Below are positions 8,848 through 31,832 of a stretch of 64,000 nt of DNA, one piece after another. The notes beneath the pieces were generated by a model. It was not told the DNA's origin, made no database searches, and saw only the letters and a list, made by a program, of their open reading frames with translations. The DNA lies in assembly GCF_011634835.1 (NCBI RefSeq), contig NZ_SIRP01000001.1:675140-739139 (forward strand), given 5' to 3'. The stretch is from Isoptericola sp. BMS4. Lineage in GTDB: Bacteria; Actinomycetota; Actinomycetes; Actinomycetales; Cellulomonadaceae. The position numbers and the translations under genes were made by a program. Within the stretch, counting starts at the first letter, position 1, and each line of letters opens with the position of its first letter.

Positions 8848-10379
8848 ACGCCGCGACGCGGGCCGGTGTCCGTGGCGACGTCGTGCGTCGGCGCGCCCGG
8901 ACCACGCCTGGCGCGCACGACCATGATGACCAGGCCGACGACGAGCCACACCGCGGCGATCTCCAGCGCGAGATGGCTGGCCAGCACGAGGACGGCGACG
9001 ACGATCGCCGCCCCGACGACCGGGACGACGGTGTGCAGGACGCGGCGGTCCGTGCGGCGTCCGAGCACGTAGTAGCCGATCACGGCGACGTGCAGGAAGA
9101 CGAACGCGGCCAGGGCGCCGACGGTGACCATCGAGGAGAGCAGGTCGAGACCGTCGGGCTTGATCGCGGCGGCGACGGCGATGAGGAGCGTCGCGACCGC
9201 CGAGACGAGGATCGCGGGCCGAGGCACGCCGGTGCGGCGGCTCACGGAACCGAGCGCGGCGGGCAGCTGCCCGTCGCGGGCCATGCCGTACATGAGACGG
9301 CTGACCGCGGCCTGCGCGACGAGCGCGGAGAGCACGGGCCCGATCGCTCTCGCCGTCGTGACGGTCGTGCCCAGCCAGGACCCGATCTCGTCGCCGATCA
9401 TGGTGTAGAAGACCGTGCCCTGCTCGTCGGGGCGCGCGGCGAGCTCCGCCGGGGTGGTCGTCGTCAGCAGCGCCCCCAGGTACGTCTGCAGCACGAAGAG
9501 CGCCCCGGCGAGGACCAGGCAGAAGATCAGGGCCTTGCTGACCTGCCGTGGGGACCCGGTGGTCTCCTCGGCGAACGTGGCGATCGCGTCGAAGCCCAGG
9601 AAGGCGAGCGCCGCCACCGAGACCGCACCGAGAGTGCCGGCGACGGTGAAGCCGTCCAGCCCCGTCAGCGGGGACAGCCACGGCCTCGCCGGTCCCTCCT
9701 GGACCAGGACGACGACCGCACCCACGCAGAAGGCGGCCAGCACCAGGATCTCCACCACCAGGGCGACGAAACCGACCGTCGCCGCCAGCTTGACCCCGCC
9801 GAGGTTCAGGCCCGTGATGAGCAGCACGGCCGCGCCGGTGAACACCCAGACGGGCACCGCGGGAAACAGGGCGTGGCTGGCGATGCCGCAGAACAGCGCG
9901 GCCAGGCTCGGGATGAACAGGTAGTCCAGCCCGATCATCCAGCCGGCCATGAAGCCCGGGCGCCTCCCCAGCCCCGCGGTCGCGTAGGCCGAGACCGACC
10001 CCGCCTTGGGCACGGCGACGGACATGCGCGCGTACGACCATGCGGTGAACGCCATCGCCACCGTCGCGACGAGGAACACGAGGGCGACCGCCCCGTTGCT
10101 GCGGGCGTCCAGCACGCCGAAGGTGCCCATCGGCGCGGTCGGGCCGATGAACAGCAGCCCGTAGACGACGAGGTGGCGCAGGGACAGGCTCCGGTGGAGC
10201 CGCCCCTCGGTGGTGCCGGGTGCGGGGACGTCCTTGGCGGCGCGGGGACTGGTAGACGTCGGTCTCAACTCCTCAGCTGTTCGCGGTGGCCCGGACGGCA
10301 ACGCGGGTCCTCGATCGGGCCTCGGCGAGCCTACGCCGACGGCAGCGGGTGAGGGGGTGGCGGGCGTGAACGACAGCAC
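8844..10379 (-). CDS. APC-superfamily amino acid/polyamine permease
   Basis: About 511 residues with twelve hydrophobic segments. It has the APC signature of an early unwound helix (LLFIGPTAPMGTFGVLD) and a FDAIATFAEETTGSPRQ block, which in this family lies in the substrate and proton path. Such proteins carry amino acids or amines with protons through the inner membrane. The first ~60 residues are low-complexity and the start is unclear. GTG at 10379 has AGGTG five bases upstream, so I prefer it over the ATG at 10487. Substrate unknown. Confidence 0.82.
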   Translation of the reverse strand: MLSFTPATPSPAAVGVGSPRPDRGPALPSGPPRTAEELRPTSTSPRAAKDVPAPGTTEGRLHRSLSLRHLVVYGLLFIGPTAPMGTFGVLDARSNGAVALVFLVATVAMAFTAWSYARMSVAVPKAGSVSAYATAGLGRRPGFMAGWMIGLDYLFIPSLAALFCGIASHALFPAVPVWVFTGAAVLLITGLNLGGVKLAATVGFVALVVEILVLAAFCVGAVVVLVQEGPARPWLSPLTGLDGFTVAGTLGAVSVAALAFLGFDAIATFAEETTGSPRQVSKALIFCLVLAGALFVLQTYLGALLTTTTPAELAARPDEQGTVFYTMIGDEIGSWLGTTVTTARAIGPVLSALVAQAAVSRLMYGMARDGQLPAALGSVSRRTGVPRPAILVSAVATLLIAVAAAIKPDGLDLLSSMVTVGALAAFVFLHVAVIGYYVLGRRTDRRVLHTVVPVVGAAIVVAVLVLASHLALEIAAVWLVVGLVIMVVRARRGPGAPTHDVATDTGPRRGV

Positions 10380-10422
10380 CAGGTGCACCTCGGCGTGACG
10401 GCGACACTTCGGGCGCCTCTGC

Positions 10423-10690
10423 GGATGGACCGGCCGACCACTACGACGACGCACGCGCGATGACCGTGGAGGCTGGGGCCACACCACCCCTCGGGGCGAG
10501 CGACTGCGCCGACGCCGCCATCGCCCGCTACCTGGTGGACCGCGAGGCCGACGACGGCGCCACCTGCGAGCAGGACGTCGCGCCGTTCACTCCGGCCCCC
10601 AGCGGTTCGAGCGGGAGGGCCTGTGCATGCTGGTTGGTCAGGCGGGGTGGTGGGCCTCTGACCCTGCGGTGCCGACCAGGGGTGCTCTGA
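10423..10690 (+). pseudogene. remnant of the C-terminus of a secreted TAP-like alpha/beta hydrolase
   Basis: This gap of about 355 bases between genes holds a gene fossil. The frame reads YDDARAMTVE, then AGATPP, then LGASDCADAAIARYLVD and a GATCEQDVAPFTP tail. The Cys-containing CADAA..YLVD block is typical of the C-terminus of tripeptidyl-aminopeptidase-like hydrolases. Read one base away, the middle gives GWGHTTP, the usual catalytic-His loop. Two nearby compensating frameshifts have therefore removed the catalytic His. No start, nucleophile elbow or signal peptide remains. Identification is by motif memory only. Confidence 0.5.
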
Positions 10691-10734
10691 ACCACGCGCG
10701 ATCTTCGCGGACCAGTGGATCACCTGCGTAGGGA

Positions 10735-12396
10735 TCAGTCGCTGTCGCTCTCCTGAGAGGGGCCTCCACCCATGTCACCGGCGGCGTCGATTCGCCTCCT
10801 CAGATGCGACAGGAGACTCAGCGCGTCGAGGCAGTCCTGATGAGTGAAGAACCCCCGCTCGCGCAGGGCCCTGACTTCCTCGTGGGCGAACGGACTCCGG
10901 AAGCCGTGCCAGATCCCTTCCGAGAGAACACGCTGCGCGGTCCTGATGTTCTGTGCACTGTCGTCCGAGATCTCGCCGTCGAGCCCAGGAAGGACGTCGA
11001 TGGCGAAGGACTTACCGAATGCTCGTTGCAGTGCGCTCAGATCGTCGTTTCCGGAGATGGAACCGGCGTTCTTGACGTCGCGGACGTATCTCTTGGTTGC
11101 CTCCAGGACGGCATGGAAGTAGTGGCCGTCCTTGTAGTACTCCTCTGATGCCGATTGGATCGACGAGTGGAGGGTTCGCCAGTGAAGGTCGGCGTATTCC
11201 GGCGCGATCTCGTTCATGCCGATGACGATCGCTTCGCGATCGCTGTCGGAGAGCTCGGTGTCAGGTGATTCGAGGACGTGGAGCACATCTGAGAGTGATT
11301 GTGCTCGCCGTTCGTCACGAATGGAGGCGACCCATTTATCCACCTCGACTCCCAGGTCCGTCTTCAGCCGTGCGCGCTTCGTTGTCCGCCGTGTTTCTCG
11401 GCGCTTCGCCGCGATTTCGCGAAGCATGTCGGCGAGGAAGTCTCGGAGGCGCTCGGCCTCGGAGCTCTCCCAGCTGACCGACCGCCGATCCGTGGCGATG
11501 ACGTCCTCCTCGAGATCGTCGAGATAGTCGGCGTCGATGTGCCCGGTGATGTAGGAGAACGCATAGCTGGACTCGGGTACACCGAAGTACTCCGGGTCGT
11601 TCGCCAGTCGACCCTTGGCGTAGAGGGTGACCCCGCGGAGCTCCTGGGGGAGTGGTTTCGACGCTGTGATGATGCGCCCACGTACGGGCGGCGCGTCGGA
11701 GGAGTCCGCGAGATCGCCGGGGATGGACCACTCGGCCTCGACGTCGATCCGCGCGTACCTGAGGTCGCGCGAGACGAGGATCGGGTCGGTGCGCGGTCCC
11801 CGTACGGTGATCTCGAACGTGGAGTCGCCGTAATTGAAGAGCTTGGCGAGGCTCTCGGCTAGGTCTTTGGCCTTGACCGGGCTTTTCCGCTGCAGATCTT
11901 CGACCAGGATGGTCGTGCCGTGTTCGTCGACGTCCTCCGCCCGCTCGGCCCCGGCTTCGGGGTGGTAGACGCCTCCGGTCTCTCCGAGGATCGCGTCCCA
12001 GTCCATCGTCACGACGGTCCAGGTCGACTCGCCGGCCCGCTTCGTTCGGATGGTGATCCGCTTGCCGATGCCGAAGAGCGCCAGTTTCCCGAGGCCCTTG
12101 CGACCGGCGACCCGTCGTCGGCCGGACTCGGAGAAGCCGGTGGCGTCACGCCGCCGGTTCCGCCCGATGCGGAGATAGCGTTCCGCGAGATCTTCGCGAC
12201 TCATCCCGTGGCCGTCGTCCTCGACGCGTACGCTCTGCGCCCCCGAGGTGTCGAGCGTGACACGTGCGTGTGCGGCGTCGGCGTCATACGAGTTGGCGAC
12301 CAGTTCGGCGACGGCGTTCGGCAGCCGCGAGTACATCTTGAAACCCAGATGTTCAATCGTGTTGGGGTCGAACGAAAGGGTGAGCTGTTCGGTCAT
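10735..12396 (-). CDS. GHKL ATPase fused to a C-terminal TIGR02391/HEPN-like domain; last gene of the six-gene defence operon
   Basis: 553 residues. The N-terminal Hsp90/MutL-type ATPase has its N-box around Asn35 (AELVANSYDAD), a DDGHG at 60-64 and a glycine lid GRKGLGKLALFG at 98-109. The C-terminal ~110 residues resemble the TIGR02391 (Ymh-like) family. They include the pair R500-x4-H505 in FRSPFAHEE, the catalytic pattern of HEPN ribonucleases, followed by LSLLSHLRRRID. The start overlaps the Z1 stop by four bases. GC is near 58%, well below the flanks. An ATP-gated RNase effector is my inference; the individual motifs are visible. Confidence 0.8.
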   Translation of the reverse strand: MTEQLTLSFDPNTIEHLGFKMYSRLPNAVAELVANSYDADAAHARVTLDTSGAQSVRVEDDGHGMSREDLAERYLRIGRNRRRDATGFSESGRRRVAGRKGLGKLALFGIGKRITIRTKRAGESTWTVVTMDWDAILGETGGVYHPEAGAERAEDVDEHGTTILVEDLQRKSPVKAKDLAESLAKLFNYGDSTFEITVRGPRTDPILVSRDLRYARIDVEAEWSIPGDLADSSDAPPVRGRIITASKPLPQELRGVTLYAKGRLANDPEYFGVPESSYAFSYITGHIDADYLDDLEEDVIATDRRSVSWESSEAERLRDFLADMLREIAAKRRETRRTTKRARLKTDLGVEVDKWVASIRDERRAQSLSDVLHVLESPDTELSDSDREAIVIGMNEIAPEYADLHWRTLHSSIQSASEEYYKDGHYFHAVLEATKRYVRDVKNAGSISGNDDLSALQRAFGKSFAIDVLPGLDGEISDDSAQNIRTAQRVLSEGIWHGFRSPFAHEEVRALRERGFFTHQDCLDALSLLSHLRRRIDAAGDMGGGPSQESDSD

Positions 12397-15300
12397 CCTC
12401 CCGAACCTTTCAGATCCACGTCGTACGTGGCGCGCTCGTCCTTGAACTTGACCTCGAACGCCACGCGGCCGCCCGGTGCCGAGCGGTACGGCATGGCGAG
12501 CGAGAACATCGACGCGATCTCACCGGGGTCGGGCTGGTCGGGCAGGTTGCGCGGTTCGTCGTCGTCGAATCGGTCGGCTGAGAACGTCAGGAGGATCGCT
12601 CCCCGGGTGCCGCGCGGGTCAGCGACGTCACGGAGGTGCCTGAACTTGGTCTCGGTGCGAAGGATCTCCGCGAACGCCGCGCGGTACTTGTGCTCCGGAG
12701 CAGCGCCACCGCCGGAGATGATCTCGAGGGCGTCGCGCTGACGGGGCGAGCTCCCGGAGAACATGCCCTCGCGGTCGTCACGCCTTCTGCGCTTGAGGAT
12801 GTCGAGCCGCTCGCCGTCGACGTAGCGCGTCGCGACACTCGCGCTCGCTCGGCTGCTCGATGCCAACTCGGGCACGATCACCGCCCAATCGGTCAGAGTG
12901 CCCTCGTCGTGCGCCTTCTCGATGAAGTTGAGGGTCGGCGCGATCGAGTAGCGCTTGGCCCAGTGGAACTCACGGATCATGGCGAGCACCGTGTCGGTGT
13001 CCACGATGCCGTACCGTGCCGCGTACTCGTTGGCGACGGGCTTCTCGTCGTCTCGCACGTCGATCACGTGGAAGAACGGGCCGCGGTTGCTCGCCGCGTC
13101 GAGCAGCGGTCGGACGGCGGCGAAGTGCGTGGCATTGACCTGCGGGTCGCGGTCCGGCTGTTGGAAGAAGTCGCGGACCTTGCCGCCGTCTCCTTGTCGG
13201 GTGAGGCGGGCGTTGTACATCTTGTTGCGTCCGGTCGGCGTCAGCCATGGCAGGCTCTGGAACACCAGCGGCGGCACGTCGATCGGGCGGACCATGGGGT
13301 GTCCGTCGTCCCGTGCACCCTGGTATTGGCGCAGCTGGTCGCGGAAGTCCTCCTCGTCCTTCACGATCGCCTCGAATGCCCGGTACAGGTCCACGGTCGT
13401 GCTCTTCCTCTGCCCGGGCACGTACCTGCCGATGTAGAGCCGGACGAGGTCGTGGTAGCCCGGGCGGTAGCCGAACCAGCGGCCCATCTGCATGAGCGTG
13501 TCCGCCGCGACGGTGCGGCGGGTGTAGTACGTCGTGGTGAGACCCTCCACCGTGAATCCGCGGCTGAGCTTGGTGCCTCCGACCAGGATCTTCCAGACCG
13601 AGCCCGCCTGGAAGTCGAGGTCCTCCTGGACGTAGTCCCGCTCGGCAGCGCCGTTGACGACGATGACGGGGCTGTACCCGGATCGGATACGACTGACCGC
13701 CTCGCCGACGTACGGTCGCAGTGCGGTGAAGTCGTCGATCCCCGCCTCGGGGGCGCGCGCCAGGGTCACCGGGCGGAAGTCGTCGCGCCACAGGTCGTGG
13801 AGCCGGCGCATCCCGGCGGGAGAGGAGTAGCCGGCACGGTTCCAGACGTCGACGACGGTTGCCGCCAGTTCCGCGTGGTCCACCTGCTTCACCGACTCGT
13901 GCACCAACATCGTGTGGTGGTGGAAGTCGCCCTCGTCCCCTCGAGCAGCGCGTTGCAGCTTCAGCGCTCCGCTGAGCACGAAGGCGTCGAGGGCGTTCCG
14001 GATCTCGAGACGTCGGGCGTCCTCGTCGTCGGGAGCGGCAAGAAGGTCGCGGACGAACGCCGCCTCGTTCGAGTCGGCAGGATCGTCGGAGACCGGCTCG
14101 TCGGGCTCGCGGTCGAGGTCGTGGAACTGCCTCCCACCCATGTAGGCGGCGGGTGGGTCCAAGCTGACGATGAAGTCCTTGGGGAACACGTCCTCGGCGT
14201 CGTCCGGGTCGACGAAGACGTTGGCGAAGGGCGTGGCCGTGTAGCCGATGTACTGGGCTCGCGGTAGCTCGCCGAGGAGCTGCGCGATGAGGCGGTTGAT
14301 CGCCGTCCGCTCGCGGCGCTCGGGGGTGTCCTTGCGAGGGTCGGTGGTGTTGATGGAGGCCTGGTCCGCCTCGTCGTCGATGATCAGTGCAGGGATCTCG
14401 CGGAGGTCGGCCTTGATCGCCTTGAGGTCCTTGACGAGCTTCTTGAGCACGGACGAGTTCTTCTTCACGACGGCGAGGCGGATGTCCGTGCCGAAGAGAT
14501 TCGTCGGGTCGTACAGCGGCTTGGCCGGGTCGGCGAAAGGATCGGTGTCGCGGTAGTCGAGGTACCCGAGGCCGGTCTTGAGGCTCCGGTAGTCACCCGA
14601 CGCGTTCGTCAGCCTCCGGATGCCCGGTCGACGCTGGCGCTTCGGGTCCCCTCCGTAGCGGACGAACTTGCCGGCGAGCCAGTCCAGGTCGCCGCTGCCG
14701 GCGTAGTCGATGTCGCGTACCTGGTCGGGGTCGTTCTTGTCGCGCCCACCGAGGATGTTCTCCTCCCCGACGAGCTCCATGTCGATGCGCCGTTGGGTCT
14801 GGCCCCGCAGCAGTTCGATGGTGCCGGTCAGCACGATGACCAGGCGATACCCGGCGTCCACGGCCTTGGCGACGACGCCGGTGAAGTTGGCCGTCTTGCC
14901 GGACTGCACGTGTCCGACCACGAGCCCCTTGGACTGGTACGGCTCGCGGCGTGTCGGGTCGGCGAGGCGGCGGACCACCTCGTGCGTCACGCGGTCGAGC
15001 TCGTTGACCGCGTCACCGCTCATCTTGCGCTCGAGGACCCGGCGATAGCCGGCCCAGTAGAACGAGCGCTCGGCGGCGATGGCATCCGTGTACCACGGGT
15101 CCCAGTCCTCCGGCTTGTCCCCGGCGATGACAACGGCACCGAGGTCCAAGGGGTAGGCCGCGTCGACGGCGGCGCGCGCCTCGTCGCCGAGCTCGAGCAG
15201 CTCGAGCACGAGGGCCCGGCGCTCGGCGGTGCGGGGTTCGGTGGTCTGGGTCCATCCGTCGGCGTCACCCGCGTCCCACCGGTTGAGCTGGACGTGGAAG

Positions 15301-15479
15301 GCCAGCCGCGCCTGGTCGTTGGGGTCGGCCGAGGTGATCATCTCGACCAGCTCGTCCTCGGTCAGCGTCTCGTCGTATCGCCGCAGGTGGTGCAGGACGT
15401 CGTCGAGCAGCGGCTGCGGCTCGAACCCCTGCATGCTCCGCATGGCGCGGACGACGGCGTCGGTGAGGATGTCGCTCAT
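12393..15479 (-). CDS. Z1-domain superfamily 2 ATPase
   Basis: 1028 residues. The Walker A is GHVQSGKT at about 189-196, the DEAD-like Walker B is IIDDEAD at about 366-372, and YIGYTATPFANVF near 410-422 matches helicase motif III. A late block at about 635-671 (GGTKLSRGFTVEGL and then MQMGRWFGYRPGY) marks the Z1 domain. Z1 proteins occur beside MORC/MutL-like ATPases and nucleases in predicted restriction systems and probably translocate on or remodel DNA. It overlaps its neighbours on both sides by four bases (ATGA), so its dose is tied to the nuclease before it and the GHKL-HEPN protein after it. Confidence 0.88.
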   Translation of the reverse strand: MSDILTDAVVRAMRSMQGFEPQPLLDDVLHHLRRYDETLTEDELVEMITSADPNDQARLAFHVQLNRWDAGDADGWTQTTEPRTAERRALVLELLELGDEARAAVDAAYPLDLGAVVIAGDKPEDWDPWYTDAIAAERSFYWAGYRRVLERKMSGDAVNELDRVTHEVVRRLADPTRREPYQSKGLVVGHVQSGKTANFTGVVAKAVDAGYRLVIVLTGTIELLRGQTQRRIDMELVGEENILGGRDKNDPDQVRDIDYAGSGDLDWLAGKFVRYGGDPKRQRRPGIRRLTNASGDYRSLKTGLGYLDYRDTDPFADPAKPLYDPTNLFGTDIRLAVVKKNSSVLKKLVKDLKAIKADLREIPALIIDDEADQASINTTDPRKDTPERRERTAINRLIAQLLGELPRAQYIGYTATPFANVFVDPDDAEDVFPKDFIVSLDPPAAYMGGRQFHDLDREPDEPVSDDPADSNEAAFVRDLLAAPDDEDARRLEIRNALDAFVLSGALKLQRAARGDEGDFHHHTMLVHESVKQVDHAELAATVVDVWNRAGYSSPAGMRRLHDLWRDDFRPVTLARAPEAGIDDFTALRPYVGEAVSRIRSGYSPVIVVNGAAERDYVQEDLDFQAGSVWKILVGGTKLSRGFTVEGLTTTYYTRRTVAADTLMQMGRWFGYRPGYHDLVRLYIGRYVPGQRKSTTVDLYRAFEAIVKDEEDFRDQLRQYQGARDDGHPMVRPIDVPPLVFQSLPWLTPTGRNKMYNARLTRQGDGGKVRDFFQQPDRDPQVNATHFAAVRPLLDAASNRGPFFHVIDVRDDEKPVANEYAARYGIVDTDTVLAMIREFHWAKRYSIAPTLNFIEKAHDEGTLTDWAVIVPELASSSRASASVATRYVDGERLDILKRRRRDDREGMFSGSSPRQRDALEIISGGGAAPEHKYRAAFAEILRTETKFRHLRDVADPRGTRGAILLTFSADRFDDDEPRNLPDQPDPGEIASMFSLAMPYRSAPGGRVAFEVKFKDERATYDVDLKGSGG

Positions 15480-16453
15480 GCGGTGGTGCTCCCCGTGTGG
15501 CCCAGGAACGGTGTCAGCGGATGACCGGGGTCGCCGGGTGTGCGGTCGGTCACGTCGACACGGTAGGTGAGGTCACCGACAAGATCGTGGTTGGGGACGA
15601 CGGCGCGGAGACGCTCCGTGGTGACGGCCGGGAAGTCGTCGTCGACGGCGTAGGCACGCGGGGTGCTGCGCTGCAGGTACTTCTGGTCGTACAGCTCCGC
15701 GTCCTCGTCGGCCCAGCCGAGGTCGGCGAGCGCGGCGCCGAACCGGGCGTCCCCGCTCAGCCGCCCACGGAGGTCGACGACCATGCCGGCTAACGAACGC
15801 CCGGTACCGCCGCCGGCCCGGGTGAGTTGGATCGAGAGGAGCCACAACGGTCGCGCCGGGTTGGGGCGGAGTTGTTCGGTCCCGGAGATCATGTGCTTCC
15901 GGCGCTCCGAGAGCGTGGTCTTCACCTCGAGGTCGACGGCGGGCAGCGCGAAGTCGTGCTGTTCGGCGAGCGGGCCGAGCCACCAGTCGAGGGCGTCGTC
16001 GGCGCCCGCGCCGTCGAGCAGGGCCTCCAGCACCATCAGCTCACCCAGGAGCCCGAGCTGCTGTTCCTCGCTGAGGCGACGGCGCAGTGCGAGCAGGGAC
16101 CGCAGGTCCGACATCGCGGCGTTGGTGGCCGCGGCGAACGAGGACCCCTTGCGCATCTCCTCCACGATGGAGACGGCGAGGGCGTAGGCGGGCTGGTGCA
16201 TTCCCCGGGCGTCGACGTCGACGACCGACCACATGGTCCCGTCGACGTCCTCGAGGTCGACGGAGACGCGCTCGAGGCCCTTGACCGTCGGCGAGGTCCC
16301 GTCGTGCACGGTGCGGAAGGTGAGCCGCTCGGCTGCCGGGTCGATGCGCAGCAAGCATCGAGGCTCGTCGCAGAGCAGATGTTGCGTCGCGACGTTCGCC
16401 GAGAAGTACTCGTCGAGGGATTCGGGGGTGAGGTACCGGGCGGGGTCGGTCAC
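15476..16453 (-). CDS. PD-(D/E)XK nuclease-fold protein (DUF4420-like)
   Basis: 325 residues, starting at a GTG that overlaps the upstream GHKL stop by four bases. A helix with LLGELMVLEALL (Glu138) precedes the core strand, in which Asp167 and the E176-V-K178 triplet in VDLEVKTT form the expected D...ExK metal site. DUF4420-type proteins with this layout sit next to Z1 and GHKL genes in other bacteria. It is the most likely DNA-cutting subunit of the complex. The active-site residues look intact. Confidence 0.8.
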   Translation of the reverse strand: MTDPARYLTPESLDEYFSANVATQHLLCDEPRCLLRIDPAAERLTFRTVHDGTSPTVKGLERVSVDLEDVDGTMWSVVDVDARGMHQPAYALAVSIVEEMRKGSSFAAATNAAMSDLRSLLALRRRLSEEQQLGLLGELMVLEALLDGAGADDALDWWLGPLAEQHDFALPAVDLEVKTTLSERRKHMISGTEQLRPNPARPLWLLSIQLTRAGGGTGRSLAGMVVDLRGRLSGDARFGAALADLGWADEDAELYDQKYLQRSTPRAYAVDDDFPAVTTERLRAVVPNHDLVGDLTYRVDVTDRTPGDPGHPLTPFLGHTGSTTA

Positions 16454-17976
16454 GAACTCTCCTCGCTGCGTCGCGTGTGCTGCGCCACATGCTCCCGTGC
16501 GGCGGCGACGAGCACACGCTGCCACGCGGATTCCAGCCGCTTCAGGCGGGCGCCCCGGATGTCGGCGGTGAAATGGGTGTTCACCAGCAGATACAGGAGT
16601 GCCTTGACCATGGGTGCGTCGTCGGGGCTCAGGCTCCGGTGCCCGACGATCGCCTCCCGGTACCGTGCGTTGAGGAAGAGCCTGCGCGCGTCGACGTCCA
16701 CGCGGAAGAACTCGTCCTCGGGCAGCATCGACCACCGGATGTCGACGGGCTGCTCGTCCGGTACGAGGTCTGTGGCGTCGGCGAACGCCTCGATCACGCT
16801 CGCCGGCATGCCGCCGTGGGGTTCGACGACGGAGACCGGGCGGGCCTGGCGCTTGCGCGCTTCCCGTGACTCGTCGCGTGCGGCGGCGAGGAGATCCGCG
16901 AACCCCCGTCCGTCCGCGGAGCGCGCGGCGCGGATCGCGTCCTTGAGGACGGCGTCGAGGACGACGCCGGTCTTCTCCGGGTTGATCGTCACGTGCCGCT
17001 CGGTCGACGGGCCGAGGTCGAGGGCCAGTCGTGCCTGCCCGAGGTCCGGTTCGCGCATCGTCAGGTCGCACCAGCCGCCGGCCTGCAACAGCCGGTCGCG
17101 GCGGTAGACGTACAGCCCCTGCGTGTCGAGCGGCCCGCGCTCGTCGAGGACGAATCCCGGTGCGCTCTGTTCGCGCGCCGGCCAGACGTACGCAGTGGCC
17201 GTGACCGTGCCGTCGTCGAGACGAACCGGTAGGTCCATCGGGAAGCCGACGGCTCCGGAGACCCGGGACGAGAACGGGTCGAGCGGGGAGACCACGGCCG
17301 GCGCCCCCGGGCCGTACTCGGCGTCGTACTCCTCGATGCTGACGTGCACGGCGCCCCGCGCGAGCAGCCGGTGGAGTACCAAACCGAGGTGGGTCGCGAG
17401 GCGGTGGATCGTCGAGCCGATCCACGCCTGCTGCTCCTCGACGTCGGTGGTCGGGAGGAACGCCCGCACGTCCGCCCATTCGACGACGGTCCCGGTCTCG
17501 AGGTCGAAGTCGACGTCGACGGCGTCGAGCCGTTCGCGCGCGGTGTCGGAGGCGTACGACTCCACGACCGGCCCGGTGTCGATGGTCGCGCGGCGGATTC
17601 GCCGCCCCACGGCCGGCGCTCCGAAGCGACGGGACCACACGATGAGCGTCTCGGCCTGGCTGAGCGACGCGGCCTTGAGGCCGATGCCGAAGTGGCCCAG
17701 GTCGTTCTCGTCGTAGTCCCGTTTCCTGGCGTAAGTCATCGCGGCGTCGACGGCGGCGGTGTCCATACCGTGCCCGTCGTCGATCACCTCGAGCCCGACG
17801 GGTCGCCCGTCGCGGGTGACGAAGCGGACGACGACGTTGCGTGCGCCGGCGTCGAGGCTGTTGTCGACGAGGTCCGCCACGGCCGTGGACAGCGAGTGGT
17901 GCCGACCGATCGCCGAGGTGATCGACGGGTCGGGGTCCACCCGCCGCTGCGTGACGGGCTGCGGCGCGGTCGGCAT
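16450..17976 (-). CDS. MORC/MutL-like GHKL ATPase
   Basis: 508 residues. It has an N-box around Asn39 (VADLVDNSLDAG), DDGHG at 66-70 and GHFGIGLKAASLS at 94-106, and a middle S5-like region. It lacks the C-terminal HEPN-like part seen in the other GHKL protein of the operon, and the two are not close paralogues by eye. Prokaryotic MORC-like ATPases close as clamps on DNA and are known from restriction-modification neighbourhoods. The start shares one base with the DUF499 stop (TGATG). Confidence 0.85.
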   Translation of the reverse strand: MPTAPQPVTQRRVDPDPSITSAIGRHHSLSTAVADLVDNSLDAGARNVVVRFVTRDGRPVGLEVIDDGHGMDTAAVDAAMTYARKRDYDENDLGHFGIGLKAASLSQAETLIVWSRRFGAPAVGRRIRRATIDTGPVVESYASDTARERLDAVDVDFDLETGTVVEWADVRAFLPTTDVEEQQAWIGSTIHRLATHLGLVLHRLLARGAVHVSIEEYDAEYGPGAPAVVSPLDPFSSRVSGAVGFPMDLPVRLDDGTVTATAYVWPAREQSAPGFVLDERGPLDTQGLYVYRRDRLLQAGGWCDLTMREPDLGQARLALDLGPSTERHVTINPEKTGVVLDAVLKDAIRAARSADGRGFADLLAAARDESREARKRQARPVSVVEPHGGMPASVIEAFADATDLVPDEQPVDIRWSMLPEDEFFRVDVDARRLFLNARYREAIVGHRSLSPDDAPMVKALLYLLVNTHFTADIRGARLKRLESAWQRVLVAAAREHVAQHTRRSEESS

Positions 17977-20900
17977 CAGCCGTCCGTGAACCGTGTCGAG
18001 GTGAACCTCAGCTGCCTGGAGTTCTCGCCGACGACCCGCACGGTGGACGCCTCGAACCCCGTCGAGCGCTCCGCGCGGATATCCACCGTGATGTCGAGGA
18101 CGTCCGGTCCTGCCTGCTGGAGGTGCAGGAGCACCTCGTCGACGAGGTCGCGGAACGTCGACGGGAGGTCGGAACCCCCGTCGACTTCGACACGACCTAC
18201 ATAGCTCGCGTTCGCGATCACCGGCCGGGCCGCCGGCACGGGCGGTGACGACGAGCCGGCCGCAGGGGCGCTCGGTGCGGGGTCGGTCGACGCCCCTGGG
18301 GTTATGGCGGGCGCGCCCGTGTCGGCGTCCGCCGCGCTCGCCTCGGCCGCGCGCTCGGCCCGACGCTGGGTGATCGCCAGGTCCGGCTTCACGAGCAGGG
18401 TGTCGTCGGTGATCGTGCCGGCGTCGAGGTCCTCGATCGGGACGGCGAGCCCGTCGAAACTTCCGGTCGTCTCGTCGTACGACTGCGCGAGGGCGAAGCC
18501 CTGGGCAGCGAATCCCGCGTCATGCAGGGCGGACTGCACGGCGCCGATCAGTACGTTCTTGTCGCGCAGGCGCGGCATGTACGGGTAGCGGGCGTAGTAC
18601 TCCCACAGCTCGCCGAGGCGGATCTTGCCGGTGTTCCACCGCGGCAACAGGAAGTCGTTGATGTCCATACGTACCAGGCGGGGGGCCACCTCGACGCGGA
18701 GCAGATCCTCCCGGACGAACCGCGCGCCCACGCGCTGGGCGAGGCGCTTCTCCTGCCCCTCGCACTTCTGCTGCCCGACGCCGAACGGCGCGCCCGGGTC
18801 GGGCTGCGTAGCGTGCAGGCCCCAGATCCAGGTGGCCGCGATCTGGTCGCCGATGGTCCGGTTGGTCGTCTCGACCTGACGCTGCGCCTGCGCCTCGTTG
18901 GTCGGTGTGAGATCGAGGTGCATCTTGTCGTCGAGGATCGACTTCCACGCGAGGTACGACCGGACGGTGGAATCGAGGTCGTTCCACCGGGAACTGTCGG
19001 CGGCGAGCATGACGATCGAGTTCGGCATCGTGCGCGACGCCGTGCCCCGCTTCTGGAGCAGCTCGAGCGCGAATCGACTCGCCGAGCTTCCCGGGTCCTT
19101 CCCGTTGTGGACGTGACGCGGGTGCAGCAGCACGAGGCGGGTCGAGTCCTCGTCGGCGACGTCGCCCGTCGACGTCGGTGCGACCACGACGCCGGCGAAC
19201 TCCTGTGTGGACCGCGGGGCGTCGCGCCGGAGCCGGGCGACGACCTCCTCGTGGACGCGCTCCTCGTCCACCTCCAGGGCCCGGTTGGCGGCCGTGCGGT
19301 TGAGGGAGGCCTGGGTGTCGTACCAGTACCGGTCGTCGCTCACGTAGAAGTGCGACGACCGGTCCGCCAGCATCGTGAGCGCGGAGCCGATGTTCCCGAC
19401 GACGTCACCGGGCAGGGCGAGCCCGAGCGTGAGGCGCTTGCGGTCGACGCCCTTGACGGCGGAGCTCACCGTCGGGGCGGAGTCGATCAGCACGGTGCGT
19501 GCGGTGCGGACGGTGAGCGACCTGTTGCCGAGCGCCGGCCGGTCGCGGTCGATGCGGCGCGCGACGGAGTCCTCGCCGTCGACGTCGTTCTGCAGGACGG
19601 CGTCCCAGCCGTGCGGCAGGTACTGGACCAGCTCGCGGCGGGTCACCGCGCCGCCGAGCGGGACCGTGCCGGGCAGGATGAGCGGGGCCGGGTCCTCGGC
19701 CGCCCAGAGCTGGTGGATCACCGTGCTCATGAGGCGCAGGACACCGCGGGTGCGCTGGAACTTCTCCAGCGTGGACCACTCGGCGTAGAGCCGGTCGAGC
19801 AGCTCGGGGTGTACGGGGTACGAGGCGCGGATGCGGGCCTCGTAGTCCGGCCCGGTGACGTCGGAGGGGAACTCGCCGGTGTGCTTCTGGTAGAACTCCC
19901 GGAAGCGGCGGGCGGCGACGGCGATCTGCTTGGCCTGGTCGGCGTTCGGCTGCACGAAGAGGCGTCGGCGCACGATCTCGTACGACTCGTCGCGCGCGGC
20001 CGGGGCCCACTGGTAGGCGACGCGGCGGACGATGTTGTCGAGGCGCTCCAACGCCTCCCGGCCGAAGGAACCGCCGACCTCGATGTCCGACGCGGTCGAG
20101 GCGCGGTCGGCGTCGTCGTCCGACTCCTGGCGCTCGCTCGCGGGGATGGAGACGAGCAGGAGCACGCCGGGCACCGCCGCGGCGGCCTGTGTGAGCGACT
20201 GGGCGAACGTGAACTGGGTGTCGAAGTCGCCGGCCGGCAGCGGCGCGGACGTGCCGTCGGCGAGCTGCCGGCGGGTGTTGAGCTGGCGTGCGTACGAGAC
20301 CCACTCGTCGATGAGGATCACCGCCGGCCCGTAGGCAGCGAAGAGGTCGCGCAGGGCGCCGCCCGGGTTCGTGCCGGTGCGGTCCGCCTCGGCGACGTAC
20401 GCGTAGGCGCTGGCAGCGTCGCCCGCCTGGTCGCCGAGCTGCCAGGCGATCTCGCCCCACAGCGTGTGCACGACCGTGCCGTCGGGCTTGGTGGTCGGCT
20501 GGCCGGGGGCGATCTCGTTGCCGACGATCGTCACCCGCTTGACCGGCGTCCCGACGGCGTCCTCGTGGTGGCCGACAAGCACGTCCTGGACGTCCTGCGG
20601 GAACTCGTGCAGGCGACGGCCGGAGAACAGGTGCCAGACGGCGAGCATGGAGTGGGTCTTGCCGCCACCGAACGTGGTCTGCAGGTTGATCACTGCGTCG
20701 GCGTTGGCGTTGCCGGCGAGGCGGGCGGCCGAGCGTTGCAGGAGCTCTCGGAGCCCGTCGGTGAGGTACGTGCGGCGGAAGAACTCGATCGCGTCGGAGT
20801 ACTCCGTCGGGGCGGCGTCCACGGCCCCGTCGGTGTCGCGCACCGCCACACGGTAGAGGTCGGCGGCGAACTCCGACGACGCGAAGTCGCCGCTCGCGAC

Positions 20901-21446
20901 GTCGGGGTGCGGGGTGAGCACGTCGCGCCAGGAGGGCAGCTCGGCGTCGGCCACATTGGACGTGGTGGCGGCGGACCTGGTGGAGCGGCGGGTCTCCCGC
21001 TCGAACTCGGCCCGCTGGATCTCCAGGCGCATGCGCCGCACGGTGTCGGCCTCACGGACCGCGCCGGCGGGACGAAGCAGGAGCTCGATCGTCTCCAGCG
21101 CACGGCGTGCCTGGTCCCCGGAGAACGGCTTGTTGTGGGCCCAGTCGTTGCGGACGGCCCGCAGCTCACCGGCGTACCCCTGCTCGGTGCGCGACAGTGC
21201 CCCGTTGAAGAGGTAGCCGAGCGCGCCCATGGGCTCGGTGATGATGCGCAGCTGAAGTTGGGGGTCCGTGCGCTCGTAGGTGCCGCCGCTCTTGCCTGCC
21301 TTGGCGTCCTTCGCCTGGACGACCTGCGCCCAGTCGGTGATCCCGTCCGGCAGGTGGGGTGCGACGACGCGCTCGATGAACGGGTCGAGCGCCTCGGCGA
21401 GGGTCTCGAGCGCGCGGCCGACGTAGTCGCGGTTGCTGGTGGCCAT
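17976..21446 (-). CDS. DUF499 P-loop ATPase with N-terminal Swt1/HEPN-like domain
   Basis: 1156 residues. The first ~125 form a helical Swt1-like domain containing R99-x4-H104 (RNDWAH), the HEPN signature. A P-loop follows (TTFGGGKTHS, about 256-265), with a Walker B-like VILIDEWVSYARQL further on. The rest is the large DUF499 body, ending in a Pro/Ala linker and a ~100-residue C-terminal domain. DUF499 proteins pair with DUF1156 methyltransferases in antiphage loci. The ATG shares one base with the methyltransferase stop (TGATG). Confidence 0.85.
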   Translation of the reverse strand: MATSNRDYVGRALETLAEALDPFIERVVAPHLPDGITDWAQVVQAKDAKAGKSGGTYERTDPQLQLRIITEPMGALGYLFNGALSRTEQGYAGELRAVRNDWAHNKPFSGDQARRALETIELLLRPAGAVREADTVRRMRLEIQRAEFERETRRSTRSAATTSNVADAELPSWRDVLTPHPDVASGDFASSEFAADLYRVAVRDTDGAVDAAPTEYSDAIEFFRRTYLTDGLRELLQRSAARLAGNANADAVINLQTTFGGGKTHSMLAVWHLFSGRRLHEFPQDVQDVLVGHHEDAVGTPVKRVTIVGNEIAPGQPTTKPDGTVVHTLWGEIAWQLGDQAGDAASAYAYVAEADRTGTNPGGALRDLFAAYGPAVILIDEWVSYARQLNTRRQLADGTSAPLPAGDFDTQFTFAQSLTQAAAAVPGVLLLVSIPASERQESDDDADRASTASDIEVGGSFGREALERLDNIVRRVAYQWAPAARDESYEIVRRRLFVQPNADQAKQIAVAARRFREFYQKHTGEFPSDVTGPDYEARIRASYPVHPELLDRLYAEWSTLEKFQRTRGVLRLMSTVIHQLWAAEDPAPLILPGTVPLGGAVTRRELVQYLPHGWDAVLQNDVDGEDSVARRIDRDRPALGNRSLTVRTARTVLIDSAPTVSSAVKGVDRKRLTLGLALPGDVVGNIGSALTMLADRSSHFYVSDDRYWYDTQASLNRTAANRALEVDEERVHEEVVARLRRDAPRSTQEFAGVVVAPTSTGDVADEDSTRLVLLHPRHVHNGKDPGSSASRFALELLQKRGTASRTMPNSIVMLAADSSRWNDLDSTVRSYLAWKSILDDKMHLDLTPTNEAQAQRQVETTNRTIGDQIAATWIWGLHATQPDPGAPFGVGQQKCEGQEKRLAQRVGARFVREDLLRVEVAPRLVRMDINDFLLPRWNTGKIRLGELWEYYARYPYMPRLRDKNVLIGAVQSALHDAGFAAQGFALAQSYDETTGSFDGLAVPIEDLDAGTITDDTLLVKPDLAITQRRAERAAEASAADADTGAPAITPGASTDPAPSAPAAGSSSPPVPAARPVIANASYVGRVEVDGGSDLPSTFRDLVDEVLLHLQQAGPDVLDITVDIRAERSTGFEASTVRVVGENSRQLRFTSTRFTDG

Positions 21447-24292
21447 CAGGCATCTCCGAGGTTGAACTCGTCCTGCACGGAAGCGGTCGTGACGATGGTC
21501 TCGGCGGTGGTGGTGAGGTCGGCCCACGAGCCGCCGAGCGCGTTGAAGAGGCGTGCGTCCTCGGGCCGCTTGTCCTGCGTGAGCTCGTACAACCGGTAGG
21601 CGAGCAGCTGCACCGCTTCGAGGTCGACGTCGCCGCGGTCGCGGACGGCGGCGAGCAGCCTCGCGGTGGGCTCGATGCCGCCGTTCTCGTCGGAGAGTAC
21701 GCGCGCGAGCTGGCACGTCACCTCCCACACGGAGATGCGGTCATCGACGGCGGGGTTCCACGACGCCGGAAGGTCGGCGGGGCGGATGAGCCGTACCTTC
21801 CCCTCGCCCTGCTTCAGGACGCCGGAGTCCTCCAGACCTCGCACGGAGACGTCGGTCGCCGTGGCGAGCACCTCGGCCTCGCCGTACGAGGCGACGGCCC
21901 AGCCGTACTGCAGGTACCACTTGAGGCAGAACCGGCTGGTGCTGTCGAGGTCGCCGTCGTTCTCCGCGAGGATCTCGTCGAGCACCTGGTTGATCAGTGC
22001 GAGTGCGGTCTTGACCGACATCGGTGAGCCGTCGTTCTCCAGCACCGACGAGTAGCGGGAGAAGATCGCCATGCCCGGGCCGATGGTCGACTGGGCGAGG
22101 TCGACCGGGGCAATCGCGCCCTGCTGCATCTCCGTGAGCGCCTGCGGGAGCTCAGCCTTCAGCGCGGTGAGGAAGCCACGGCGGCTCGTTGCCGATGCCG
22201 TCGCATGACGTGGGCGGAGCGAGAGGACGATCGACGAGGCGAGCGCATTCATGCCTGACGCCATCATGCGGTTCGCCATTTCTGTACGCATTGGCCATGT
22301 GGCCGTAATTGTCCAACCGGATCGGATCATGCCCTCGAGGAGGGTTGCCCAACCTGTTGATGCCACACCTTCGGCTTCAAGCTCCTGCTGCTTGAAAGCG
22401 TAGTACACGGTTATTGGGTACCCGTCGTTGGCGGACTCCCGTGCGCGGGCGAAGACTGCCTCAAAACCCTCCTCGAAAAACGTTGCCGCGCCGTCTTTGC
22501 CGTCGTGACGATACGGGTTGGCAACGAGCTCCTCGGTCTTCGGTACAAGCATGGTTGAAAATAGCGACGGATAAACCGAGCGAAGCGAGCTCCTGAGCCA
22601 AATGTAGAAGAAATCCGATAGATCCGAATAGCCGATGTTGTCATAGTACGGCGGGTCTGTCGACAGGACGAGTCCGTGGTAATTGCGGGCAGCCGCATCT
22701 GCCTGCAAGGCGTCAGCGGGAGTGCGCGGGTCAAGCCGGTCGAGAACCTTGATAGCGCTGTTAAGGCTTACCTCGAACGAGCCTGCCGCGGCGCCGAAAG
22801 GCGGCGCCTCTGCAAAGTCCCAAAGCATGGGGATGGCCTGGCGTGTGAACAAATGTCGTACCTGAGTTTTGGAGTTCTCCCAACTGCACAGTGCATTCGC
22901 GATGTCTGCGAGTCGGCTCACGCCGAGTGCAAGGTATACGGCGATTCCGTCGGCGTACGCCTCCGCGCCTTGTCCGTTGTCGGCGAGTGAGTCGCTGTGA
23001 GGCATCCCTGCGTCCAGTGCGTGCTTAAGTGCAAGCTCGCGCGCCTCTGCGACGAGATTGCTAAAAGTAGTGATTGCTACCAGCTGGCGATTGGTGAAGA
23101 GGTCGGCGAAACTAGTCATGCCATATATCTGCGTCTTGATGTCGCGCGGGTAGTGTCCGATATTCGCCTGTGGTGCGTCGCCAGGTGTGGGGACGCGTGC
23201 TGCGGCTTTGTGTTCGTCAGTCGGAGGCAGATAAGTGCGCTGACGGCCAGATCCGGCAGCGATTGCCATGAGTTGCGATCCGATGCGCTTGGCCCTGCCC
23301 TCGCTTCGAATGTATTTCAGGCTCACGGCGGAACCGCAAGCGACGCATGTAGCGCCAGCTCTGCCGACCGTGCCGTCGTCGCTCTTCGTGGGTGCGTTCG
23401 CCTTGTCGTGGGCGATCGAGAACTCGACGCGACGGCCGGACGGTGCGTCGGCGTCGTCGACTGCTGTGGGGACGACGTACGCCTCCTTGCCCTTCTTCTT
23501 CCCGAGCCACCAGGACCGCACGAGCGGCATCTCGATGCCGCAGGCGGGGTTGGGGCAGGTGACCGTGCGAGCCCAGATCCAGGCGATGACGGCCGCCTCG
23601 GTCGACGCTCTGGAGTTCGGGTCGGTGATGGTCGCCGTCGGGTACAGATGGCCGATGCGTTCCTGGGCGCGGTCGCGCATCCAGGCGCCGTACCGGCGGA
23701 CGTCCTCGGCCAGGCCGGTGGCGCGCGGCCAGTCACCCATGCGCTCTTCGGCCGCGCAGGGAAACACCGGCTGCTGGCCGGCGAACTTCGGCGGGATCTC
23801 GATCAGTGCCTTGTTGATGAGCACCGCGACGGGGTTGAGGTCGCTCGCGTGCGCCTCCAGCCCCAGGCGCTGCGCTTCGAGCGGGATGGTGCCGCCGCCG
23901 GCGAACGGGTCGAGGATCGCTGGCGGGTTGCCATCGGTGGACTTGAGGATTTCGGCGTGGGCCTCGGCGAGCAGCTTCTCGTCGTTGACGTTATCCCAGA
24001 CGACCAGGCGCCGGATGATGTGGTGGAGCCGCTCGCGCTCCGCCTTCTGCGCCTCCTCGGTGGGGAACTCGTCGGGCCGCGACGACGGGTCGTCGACGAG
24101 CTGGGCGAACAGCACCGCCCGGGCCGACGCCAACGGCCGACGGGCCCACCACAGGTGCAGCGTCGAGGGGTGTCCGTGACGGATCGACTTCTCCCGTGCC
24201 GACTCCCGGTTGATGTCCTCCAGCGGGAGCGAGACCTCGATGAGCTTCCGCCGGGTCGCGGGCGTCGTCGGGGTCGGTACCGGGTCCGTCAT
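21446..24292 (-). CDS. DUF1156-type DNA (N6-adenine or N4-cytosine) methyltransferase; first gene of the six-gene operon
   Basis: 948 residues. The N-terminus carries the DUF1156 signature (KSIRHGHPSTLHLWWARRPL). The AdoMet motif is DPFAGGGT at 128-135 and the catalytic motif DPPYYD starts at 546, an order that fits an exocyclic amino methyltransferase. Two Cys pairs (CPNPAC and CVAC) probably bind zinc between them. Bases 22200-23300 fall to about 50% GC while both ends stay near 70%, so the middle of the gene, including DPPY, has another history. It probably marks host DNA for the complex. AGGAG lies about nine bases before the ATG. Confidence 0.85.
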   Translation of the reverse strand: MTDPVPTPTTPATRRKLIEVSLPLEDINRESAREKSIRHGHPSTLHLWWARRPLASARAVLFAQLVDDPSSRPDEFPTEEAQKAERERLHHIIRRLVVWDNVNDEKLLAEAHAEILKSTDGNPPAILDPFAGGGTIPLEAQRLGLEAHASDLNPVAVLINKALIEIPPKFAGQQPVFPCAAEERMGDWPRATGLAEDVRRYGAWMRDRAQERIGHLYPTATITDPNSRASTEAAVIAWIWARTVTCPNPACGIEMPLVRSWWLGKKKGKEAYVVPTAVDDADAPSGRRVEFSIAHDKANAPTKSDDGTVGRAGATCVACGSAVSLKYIRSEGRAKRIGSQLMAIAAGSGRQRTYLPPTDEHKAAARVPTPGDAPQANIGHYPRDIKTQIYGMTSFADLFTNRQLVAITTFSNLVAEARELALKHALDAGMPHSDSLADNGQGAEAYADGIAVYLALGVSRLADIANALCSWENSKTQVRHLFTRQAIPMLWDFAEAPPFGAAAGSFEVSLNSAIKVLDRLDPRTPADALQADAAARNYHGLVLSTDPPYYDNIGYSDLSDFFYIWLRSSLRSVYPSLFSTMLVPKTEELVANPYRHDGKDGAATFFEEGFEAVFARARESANDGYPITVYYAFKQQELEAEGVASTGWATLLEGMIRSGWTITATWPMRTEMANRMMASGMNALASSIVLSLRPRHATASATSRRGFLTALKAELPQALTEMQQGAIAPVDLAQSTIGPGMAIFSRYSSVLENDGSPMSVKTALALINQVLDEILAENDGDLDSTSRFCLKWYLQYGWAVASYGEAEVLATATDVSVRGLEDSGVLKQGEGKVRLIRPADLPASWNPAVDDRISVWEVTCQLARVLSDENGGIEPTARLLAAVRDRGDVDLEAVQLLAYRLYELTQDKRPEDARLFNALGGSWADLTTTAETIVTTASVQDEFNLGDA

Positions 24293-24363
24293 CCGTAGTG
24301 CTCCTGTGGCTCACGAGTCGCCCGTCGCCTCGGCGTGTGCCGCGGCGAACGGGATGTGCCCAC

Positions 24364-24369
24364 ATCGTA
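24364..24369 (-). promoter_or_regulatory. candidate -10 box for the six-gene defence operon
   Basis: The 172-base gap between vsr and the DUF1156 gene contains TACGAT on the minus strand, a TANNNT -10, about 70 bases before the ATG. The -35 is poor. It suggests the operon can be expressed separately from vsr. Nothing else in the gap stands out. Confidence 0.3.
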
Positions 24370-24464
24370 GGGCCGCGTACGGGAGCGGGCCTGAAGTGCG
24401 GGCGGCAACCAGCGGGTGAAGACGTCCTCGCGGTCGATGGGCGTTCACGGCCCTCCGGGTCGGC

Positions 24465-24848
24465 TCACGGCCCATCTCGCGCCGAGCGCACCGCCGCTGC
24501 CACGTCGTCGGCGGCCCGGACGGCGTCTTCGTGCTCCCAGAAGCGGAGCGCCGTCCACCCCGCATCGGCCAGGCGCGCATCCGTCTCCCGGTCGCGCGCG
24601 ACATTGGCCTCGAGCTTGCGCGCCCACCACGCCCCGTTGTGCGCCGGCGACGTGCGGTGCTCGGGGCAGGCGTGCCAGAAGCACCCGTCCACGAACACCG
24701 CCACCCGGGCGCGCGTGAAGAGGACGTCCGCCCGCCGCCGCGGCATGCCGGGCAGCGGCGCGTCGACCCGGTAGCGCAACCCGCGCCGGTGCAGCTCGCG
24801 GCGCAGAAGCAGCTCCGGCGACGTGTCCCGCCGACGCTGTCGGGACAT
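24465..24848 (-). CDS. vsr: very short patch repair (Vsr) endonuclease
   Basis: 127 residues. It shows the Vsr hallmarks: an N-terminal TSPELLLRRELHRRG block, the RADVLFTRARVAVFVDGCFW strand pair with the catalytic Asp, and HACPEH with metal-binding Cys and His. The family nicks beside T:G mismatches that arise when 5-methylcytosine deaminates, and it normally travels with a C5 methyltransferase. Here that enzyme is divergent, 85 bases away. It is also upstream of and codirectional with the six-gene operon. Confidence 0.92.
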   Translation of the reverse strand: MSRQRRRDTSPELLLRRELHRRGLRYRVDAPLPGMPRRRADVLFTRARVAVFVDGCFWHACPEHRTSPAHNGAWWARKLEANVARDRETDARLADAGWTALRFWEHEDAVRAADDVAAAVRSARDGP

Positions 24849-24933
24849 ACGCTGAGAGGTTGTCGCCGACGTGACGAGCGTCGCCGGCGCGCCGGCCCGG
24901 GCCTGTCCCCGGGGCCGGCTACCCTGTCGTCCT

Positions 24934-26115
24934 GTGTCCACGTCTCGATTGTCCGCCCGACAGCCGTCGCCCGGGCGTCGGTCGCGCCGCAGGGTCCGCA
25001 CCCTCGATCTGTTCGCCGGCGCGGGCGGGCTGACCGAGGGTATGAGGTCCGCTTCGCAGCGTTTTGCCCCGGTTCGGGCGGTCGAGTGGGAGCCTGCCGC
25101 GGCCGCGACGTTCGCGCTGAACCACGGTGGGCGGATCGCCGACGACGAACTGACGTCCGACGCCGTGTTCGCGGGAGACATCGCGAAGTGGCTCGAGCAT
25201 GACGACGTGCCCGAGGTGGACGTCGTCGTCGGAGGCCCGCCGTGCCAAGGGTTCTCGAACCTGGGCAAGCGCGACGTGCTCGACGAACGCAACCTGCTGT
25301 GGCGCGAGTACGCGACGACGGTGAGCAAGGCCCGACCGCAGTACTTCGTCCTCGAGAACGTGCCGGCGTTCCTCACCTCGCCCCAGTACGGCGTCTTCCT
25401 GGAGGAGCTCTCCGCCGGCGGCATGCTGGCGGACTACACGTTCGACGCGCAGATCCTGAACGCCGCCGACTACGGTGCGGCACAGTCGCGCAAGCGCGTC
25501 GTCGTCATCGGGCACCATAAGGACCTGCCCGCCCCGGGGTTTCCGAAGGCGACGACCTCACAGGACGACTGGCTGACTCTCGGGCAGGCGCTTGCCCGAG
25601 TTCCGGCCGGCGTGACCGCCGTCGGGCTGCCCGACGCGGGCGCCATCCGCTTCGGTGACCGGCGCTTCCCGGGGCCGTTCTCGACCCGGCAGCTCCACGT
25701 CGGGCGGAAGTACCAGGACATCTCGCTGAGACGGTTCCCCGAGATCCCCTACGGAGGGAGCAGGTTCGACCTGCCCGACGAGCTCAAGGCGCCGTGCTGG
25801 CGCAAGCACACCTCCGGCTCGGGAGACGTTATGGGCAGGCTGCGCTGGGAGGATCCGTCCGTCACGATCCGGACAGAGTTCCACAAGCCGGAGAAGGGCC
25901 GCTACCTCCACCCGGTCGAGCACCGGGTGATCACCCACTACGAGGCCGCGCTGATCCAGGGCTTCCCCGAGGACTACCGATGGGCGGGCTCGTTCACCCA
26001 GATCGCGCGGCAGATCGGCAACGCCGTCCCGATCCCGCTGGGACAGGCCGTCGGGCGCCTGCTCCTCGACGCCCTGGACGCGCACGCGCCGGCCTCTGTC
26101 GAGGACGCGGCGTGA
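24934..26115 (+). CDS. DNA (cytosine-5) methyltransferase
   Basis: About 393 residues from GTG 24934; an ATG at 24871 is the alternative. All main C5-methyltransferase motifs are present: LDLFAGAGG (I), GGPPCQGFS with the catalytic Cys (IV), LENVPAFL (VI), an AQSRKRVVVIG block (VIII) and QIGNAVP (X). A TACCCT -10 lies eight bases before the GTG, consistent with a leaderless message. The stop overlaps the next gene (GTGA). With Vsr beside it this is a Dcm-like modification module; the recognition site cannot be read off. Confidence 0.92.
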   Translation: MSTSRLSARQPSPGRRSRRRVRTLDLFAGAGGLTEGMRSASQRFAPVRAVEWEPAAAATFALNHGGRIADDELTSDAVFAGDIAKWLEHDDVPEVDVVVGGPPCQGFSNLGKRDVLDERNLLWREYATTVSKARPQYFVLENVPAFLTSPQYGVFLEELSAGGMLADYTFDAQILNAADYGAAQSRKRVVVIGHHKDLPAPGFPKATTSQDDWLTLGQALARVPAGVTAVGLPDAGAIRFGDRRFPGPFSTRQLHVGRKYQDISLRRFPEIPYGGSRFDLPDELKAPCWRKHTSGSGDVMGRLRWEDPSVTIRTEFHKPEKGRYLHPVEHRVITHYEAALIQGFPEDYRWAGSFTQIARQIGNAVPIPLGQAVGRLLLDALDAHAPASVEDAA

Positions 26116-26579
26116 GCGTCGTCATCTCGCTCTCGCTCGCGCCGGTCGCCGTCCCGGACGTTCTGCACGAGCTGGTATCGCGAATCGAGGTGCTGCGGCC
26201 TGCCATCCGTGGGACCTTCACCCCGGCCGGCGGGATATTGCGTGCCTCCGTCGAGAACGTCGTCCGTCCTGTGTTGGCCGAGGCAGGGTTTCGGCCGGGT
26301 TCGCCGGCGACCTTCCTCCCGACGGAGCTCAACTACCACGCGAGCGGGCTCGCCGCCGTCGTCAGCATTCAGACCGGCCGTGCGTCGACGAACAACGGTG
26401 GCCTCGCGGCGACACTGTCGGCGGCCTCGTGCGTCGGTGTGGACTGGCTTTTGCTCCTCGCGCCCGAGACGTACAAGGGATCGACGACCGCACCAAAGGT
26501 CGAGAGCCACCTCCACGAATTGGCCGCAGCCCGGGGAGTGCACCTCGATCTGTGTGGTGTCGTCCTGGTCTCGTACTGA
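26112..26579 (+). CDS. small protein coupled to the C5 methyltransferase; possible restriction-nuclease relative
   Basis: 155 residues, translationally coupled to the methyltransferase by a four-base overlap. The centre reads SIQTGRASTNN, followed by VDWLLLLAPETYKGS. This resembles the core of some small EcoRI/BglII-type nucleases, where an ExQ or ExK triplet would stand at the SIQ position. The usual Glu appears to be Ser, so the protein may be inactive, a specificity or inhibitory subunit, or a different fold. Its position is where a cognate nuclease would be expected. Family assignment is tentative. Confidence 0.5.
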   Translation: MSVVISLSLAPVAVPDVLHELVSRIEVLRPAIRGTFTPAGGILRASVENVVRPVLAEAGFRPGSPATFLPTELNYHASGLAAVVSIQTGRASTNNGGLAATLSAASCVGVDWLLLLAPETYKGSTTAPKVESHLHELAAARGVHLDLCGVVLVSY

Positions 26580-26634
26580 GGATCGACGACGGGCGTCCCC
26601 GTCCCCCGGCGGCCCGCGCCTGAGGAGGCGGAGA

Positions 26635-28518: not shown

Positions 28519-28694
28519 GCGTCCTCCGCTCTCCGCCCATCCCTGGCAGTACTGCACCACGAGCCGGTGACACTCATCTCAGCAGAGCCCGGTGGGCCGC
28601 TCGGCTCGTCGGCCGGACCGGAATATGTGTTCCCGGTCAGATCTCCGTTCCGGGTGCTTGTCGCGATGCATCGGCCCGTCGACGGGTGAAACGA

Positions 28695-29497: not shown

Positions 29498-29507
29498 CGG
29501 ACCAGGT

Positions 29508-29518
29508 TATCAATGATA
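29508..29518. promoter_or_regulatory. palindrome upstream of mntA, candidate autoregulatory operator
   Basis: TATCAATGATA is a perfect 5-1-5 palindrome in an AT-rich patch just upstream of the GTG at 29497. Position and shape suit the Xre-type HTH of the MntA fusion. Confidence 0.45.
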
Positions 29519-29679
29519 TCCCCGGGGCGATCGACCGGGTATCAGCCCCGTGGCCGTCGCGAAGCATTCGTACCGCCATCGCATCCTGCTGGACGCAGCG
29601 CATACTCCACGGCTGGAAGCTCAGCAGGTCGGCGACGACATCACAAGCGGTCGGGCCGAGTTCGCTACGCTCCCGTGCC

Positions 29680-30237: not shown

Positions 30238-30318
30238 GCCTCGCGCTGCCGGCGCGCTGCCAGCCGTACGAGTTCGTCGTCGAGCTACGGGTACGGGTCG
30301 GCAAGTTCTCTGCGTCAC

Positions 30319-30435: not shown

Positions 30436-30447
30436 CCGTCGCAGGCA

Positions 30448-30466: not shown

Positions 30467-30471
30467 TAGCG

Positions 30472-31583: not shown

Positions 31584-31584
31584 G

Positions 31585-31830: not shown

Positions 31831-31832
31831 GA

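Follow-up and report, generated by a model that had tools for sequence, protein, structure and literature searches.

A DUF1156-DUF499 pair of Hma type beside the cutting genes of a MORC-like restriction operon: an apparent effector exchange in Isoptericola sp. BMS4 and 21 further loci

Two groups of described systems come closest to the locus reported here. In Hma, or DUF499-centred bacteriophage exclusion (BREX)-Related (BR) type 1 (PMC8565338; PMC12839542), a HEPN-DUF499 fusion and an N6-methylase with DUF1156 accompany the SNF2 helicase HmaA, usually with a nuclease. The third type of MORC/paraMORC restriction operon, in the part of its description available to us (Iyer 2008, PMC2292703), comprises a GHKL ATPase with the MORC motif, an E-D-ExK nuclease, Dcm and Vsr. 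We analysed a window of 64,000 nucleotides from the soil-type actinobacterium Isoptericola sp. BMS4 (NZ_SIRP01000001.1, GCF_011634835.1; positions 675,140-739,139, forward strand) in which components of both kinds lie in one operon. The DUF1156 methylase is called A, the DUF499 ATPase B and the downstream cutting genes C-D-E; any A-B-C-D-E locus is termed hybrid. In total, 22 hybrid loci were compared, namely that of the window and 21 others, with L016 and L031 counted as one genome. In the window, the five genes are as follows:

21446..24292, minus strand: A, DUF1156 N6-adenine DNA methyltransferase, HmaB-like (PADLOC HmaB, Pfam DUF1156)
17976..21446, minus strand: B, N-terminal Swt1-type HEPN (R-x4-H) and DUF499 AAA+ ATPase, HmaC-like (PF18731, PF04465, PADLOC HmaC)
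16450..17976, minus strand: C, MORC-family GHKL ATPase, distantly MzaB-like (Pfam PF13589, motif alignment)
15476..16453, minus strand: D, DUF4420 PD-(D/E)XK nuclease (E138, D167, E176, K178)
12393..15479, minus strand: E, superfamily 2 (SF2) protein (DTLMQMGRWFG motif, SF2 fold of the model)

A preliminary description of this stretch had placed the DUF1156/DUF499 pair and the GHKL/nuclease genes in one operon, and this association is real and beyond chance: order and strand are identical, and spacing is near zero, in all 22 loci. The two known modules it named were likewise recognized, A and B as HmaB and HmaC by PADLOC and C-E by the MORC-operon features given in PMC2292703. A matched PADLOC HmaB with 1125 bits over almost its whole length and carries motifs I (DPFAGGGT) and IV (DPPYYDN), with DPPY kept in 22/22 hybrid loci. 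B scored 793.6 bits against PADLOC HmaC and 9.5e-22 against Pfam DUF499, and its HEPN R-x4-H and Walker A motifs are both conserved in 22/22. Within C, GLYVYRRDRLL (amino acids (aa) 287-297) matches the MORC motif GhXhhpXXRhl of PMC2292703. The DTLMQMGRWFG motif of E begins at aa 660 and is present with minor variation in 21 hybrid loci; the predicted E model has an SF2 fold resembling the double-stranded DNA translocases FANCM and Mfd. At the Streptomyces locus L068, where D was not found, a NaeI gene follows E, which fits D being the nuclease. Sequence searches, run with a profile for D and with single sequences for B and E, returned no solved structural relatives of these three proteins. 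Variants of C were also seen: at L042:5367-8717 (-), sigma-70 regions and a GHKL ATPase are joined in one protein (MzaA and MzaB in one chain), whose gene lies divergent from D-E and adjoins Dcm, and a comparably long C-like gene is divergent at L044:4335-7550 (-).

What the hybrid loci lack is HmaA. For comparison, we read stretches of up to 20 kb around A loci free of C-D-E, 25 from a class sample (24 genomes) and 5 from an order sample (198 genomes). The latter contained A in 8/198 genomes: the window's, one seen before, the five that were read and one fragment that was left aside. The stretches read do not include G382 and G496, where A matches at 32-34% identity, or G734, where the match spans 226 residues. 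An HmaA-like gene was found at 29/30 of these loci (24/25 and 5/5, respectively), mostly immediately 5' of A, and PADLOC HmaA was the top match (648-1319 bits) for the four such proteins scanned; the one from L170 has SNF2, Helicase_C and NOV_C domains. At the exception, L198, a contig end cuts the sequence 5' of A and a DrmD-like helicase lies on the opposite side. As most hybrid loci cover only about 1.2 kb 5' of A, HmaA and Dcm were sought genome-wide. With four HmaA proteins, tblastn found no HmaA in the window, and none was found in its whole genome. HmaA was seen at 0/21 of the other hybrid loci, the L016/L031 match covering just 136 aa, to a DrmD-like helicase. A search of the whole genomes with an HmaA protein (E 1e-20) left 20/22 hybrid genomes without a match; of the other two, G018 has the DrmD-like neighbour only and G613 (L027) an HmaA-like gene (43% identity) on a separate contig. 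HmaA and C-D-E are therefore mutually exclusive beside A in all loci examined. The G613 contig carries HmaA-like or SNF2 genes at G613:C2:196108-198507 and 180330-181955 (43% and 33% identity), and DrmD-like SNF2 helicases adjoin A-B-C-D-E (L016:16448-19901 (+)) or A-B (L198:1229-4681 (-)), a possible third partner of A-B.

Phylogenies indicated which gene follows the engine. Trees were quick LG+G4 reconstructions supported by the Shimodaira-Hasegawa-like approximate likelihood ratio test (SH-aLRT) only, with long-branch warnings for B and E; L198 was placed in the HmaA group though its HmaA is not visible. In the B tree (46 proteins), all 22 hybrid sequences are split from the others by a single branch (SH-aLRT 99), requiring 1 change against a shuffled mean of 15.5. 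The A tree comprises 46 rows, of which 21 are hybrid; L016/L031 were omitted because A is broken there, the L027 row is a fragment and L019 is cut. Its hybrids form two groups amid HmaA-linked rows, with 2 changes, and an approximately unbiased (AU) test rejected a single hybrid A clade (p 1.4e-5). Hence B, not A, tracks the effector: the ATPase tree, and not the methylase tree, predicts which engine is present. Mantel correlations across 20 hybrid loci were 0.95 for C-D, 0.91 for B-D, 0.89 for B-C, 0.81 for A-B and 0.66 for A-E. The E tree omits, by choice, L031 and 19 Streptomyces-type rows. We infer that B is matched to the engine, with A swapped as the specificity part. A type-specific domain in B that could mark the effector interface was considered and rejected, as sequence identity rises and falls in parallel along B of both kinds, hybrid and HmaA-linked, with no local signal.

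Judged from sequence, the locus looks like an effector exchange on a BREX-related sensor, HmaA being replaced by the cutting machinery of a second restriction system. It would be a natural swap, with one methylase-ATPase pair occurring with either of two unrelated DNA-cutting engines; it points to DUF499, a core component of BREX-related systems, as an adaptor between recognition and cutting, and places a bacterial MORC ATPase beside a tractable sensor. The rival reading, that the two halves do not make up one system, is unlikely, but several observations speak for it. Each half is far commoner alone than with the other. Between L017 and L018, which share an A-B deletion, ratios of nonsynonymous to synonymous substitution (dN/dS) remain at 0.12, 0.19 and 0.11 for C, D and E, versus about 1.2 for the scar of A. 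Moreover, other large proteins occupy the A-B slot between Dcm and C-D-E, one of them sacsin/TmtA-like (L054:4075-7428 (+)), the other on the Arthrobacter plasmid p2MP (L220:6141-9431 (+)). Against this, the genes keep their order and strand and lie almost without gaps in 22 loci, B distances track those of C and D, and hybrid B, whose loci have no HmaA, forms a single clade. The earlier proposal of merged modules is partly supported.

In four loci (L017:10624-11043, L018:10588-11004, L041:8707-8865 and L187, G455:C19:5517-5930), what is left of the beginning of A precedes C-D-E or D-E, indicating that A-B was lost repeatedly. The open reading frame right before C in L017 and L018, with about 100 A residues, was considered as a functional small DUF1156 protein and rejected as a deletion scar on the grounds of its dN/dS. 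Plasmid p2MP is typed as mobilizable, so the engine is also carried on such an element.

Upstream of A in the window lie two further genes:

24465..24848, minus strand: Vsr-type endonuclease (127 aa), lying 172 bases upstream of A (Pfam Vsr 1.7e-15)
24934..26115, plus strand: Dcm, C5-cytosine DNA methylase, divergent (Pfam DNA_methylase 1.3e-54)

The Dcm frame is open from 24871, and GTG 24934 is one possible start, picked by eye. Divergent Dcm orthologues (54-64% identity) were found about 0.1-5.6 kb 5' of A, by hand calculation from contig coordinates, in 13/17 hybrid genomes searched; with L167, L016 and the window, Dcm precedes A in 16/22 hybrid loci. It was not seen in L040, L063 (contig edge), L066, L015 (4 kb searched) or L019 (contig edge), and L028 has a distant Dcm only, 3' of E. 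The cytosine methylase is part of the engine, and the unit consists of the five genes A-E and Dcm/Vsr, with the following gene optional:

10735..12396, minus strand: F, GHKL ATPase (BbrUII/HgiDII-like N-terminus) with C-terminal Ymh HEPN, accessory (NF050001, TIGR02391, PF09509)

F scored 210 bits over aa 6-377 against NCBIfam NF050001, under the cut-off of 550, and it also matches TIGR02391 and PF09509; its HEPN motif, RSPFAH, spans aa 500-505. Two HEPN domains, as originally suggested, are present, Swt1-type in B and Ymh in F. The accompanying idea that all six genes, A to F, are required parts of a single machine whose effectors are two HEPN domains is highly improbable: an F homologue occurs at just 2/22 hybrid loci (the window and L032), once downstream and once upstream, though the short upstream sequence and contigs ending shortly past E (for example, L019 and L063) could hide more.

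The HEPN domains bear on another alternative, in which A-B would act as a guard, B sensing a phage anti-restriction block of the restriction engine or of Dcm and then cleaving RNA in a PrrC-like manner. The R-x4-H of B, invariant across the hybrid loci, would suit such a role, as would the second, GHKL-linked HEPN that F brings in the window, and PMC3710099 argues that ATPase-fused HEPN domains in restriction-modification loci act like PrrC/RloC. Yet HmaA-linked B also retain the region (22/24 align from residue 1 or 2; L202 and L203 from 170), and a guard leaves unexplained both the intact-looking N6-methylase accompanying B and the exclusion between hybrid B and HmaA. We consider it quite improbable and favour the effector exchange.

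The system sits in a larger island:

10290..31950, no strand: island holding the system, about 21.7 kb (blastn of the window versus L225 and L227)

In the same-genus loci L225 and L227, the island is absent and the conserved flanks enclose 7-9 kb of different DNA, in part rearranged; blastn similarity stops at 10286/10274 and starts again only at 31957. The island also contains a HipA-like gene close to its right edge (30599-31702 (-)) and a gene for a 641-aa protein without a clear Pfam family (26635-28560 (-)). The latter matches HEC-07 (1.3e-12) and NsnC (6.5e-8) weakly in PADLOC and may be a further defence gene.

Compared with known systems, the locus shares HmaB, HmaC and the type-1 BR domain combination with Hma, but differs in lacking the SNF2 helicase(-nuclease) HmaA, in having C-D-E downstream, in the separate clade of B and in its linked Dcm. 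With the MORC operons of PMC2292703 it shares, besides the components named at the outset, the SF2 motif DThhQXuRhFG, which corresponds to DTLMQMGRWFG in E; unlike the hybrid loci, those operons carry no mention of DUF499 or DUF1156 in the available part of that source, which describes mostly cytosine and rarely adenine methylases. The Type I of Miller 2022 (PMC9523054), as far as its text was available, has the same three core genes and an association with DNA repair endonucleases; its three additional genes, unnamed in that text, could be a GHKL protein and A-B, or others. With this proviso, we found no description of the recurring A-B and C-D-E combination in the literature. Finally, C, D and E are distantly related to MzaB, MzaD and MzaC of MZA (mzaABCDE), with NCBIfam scores far below the equivalog cut-offs (107.6/850 bits for MzaB, 298.9/1500 for MzaC and 81.8/420 for MzaD). 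Neither the MzaA sigma factor nor the MzaE AIPR protein was found among A-F, Dcm, Vsr and the Pfam-scanned neighbours, and, unlike MZA, the hybrid locus carries the additional A-B pair.
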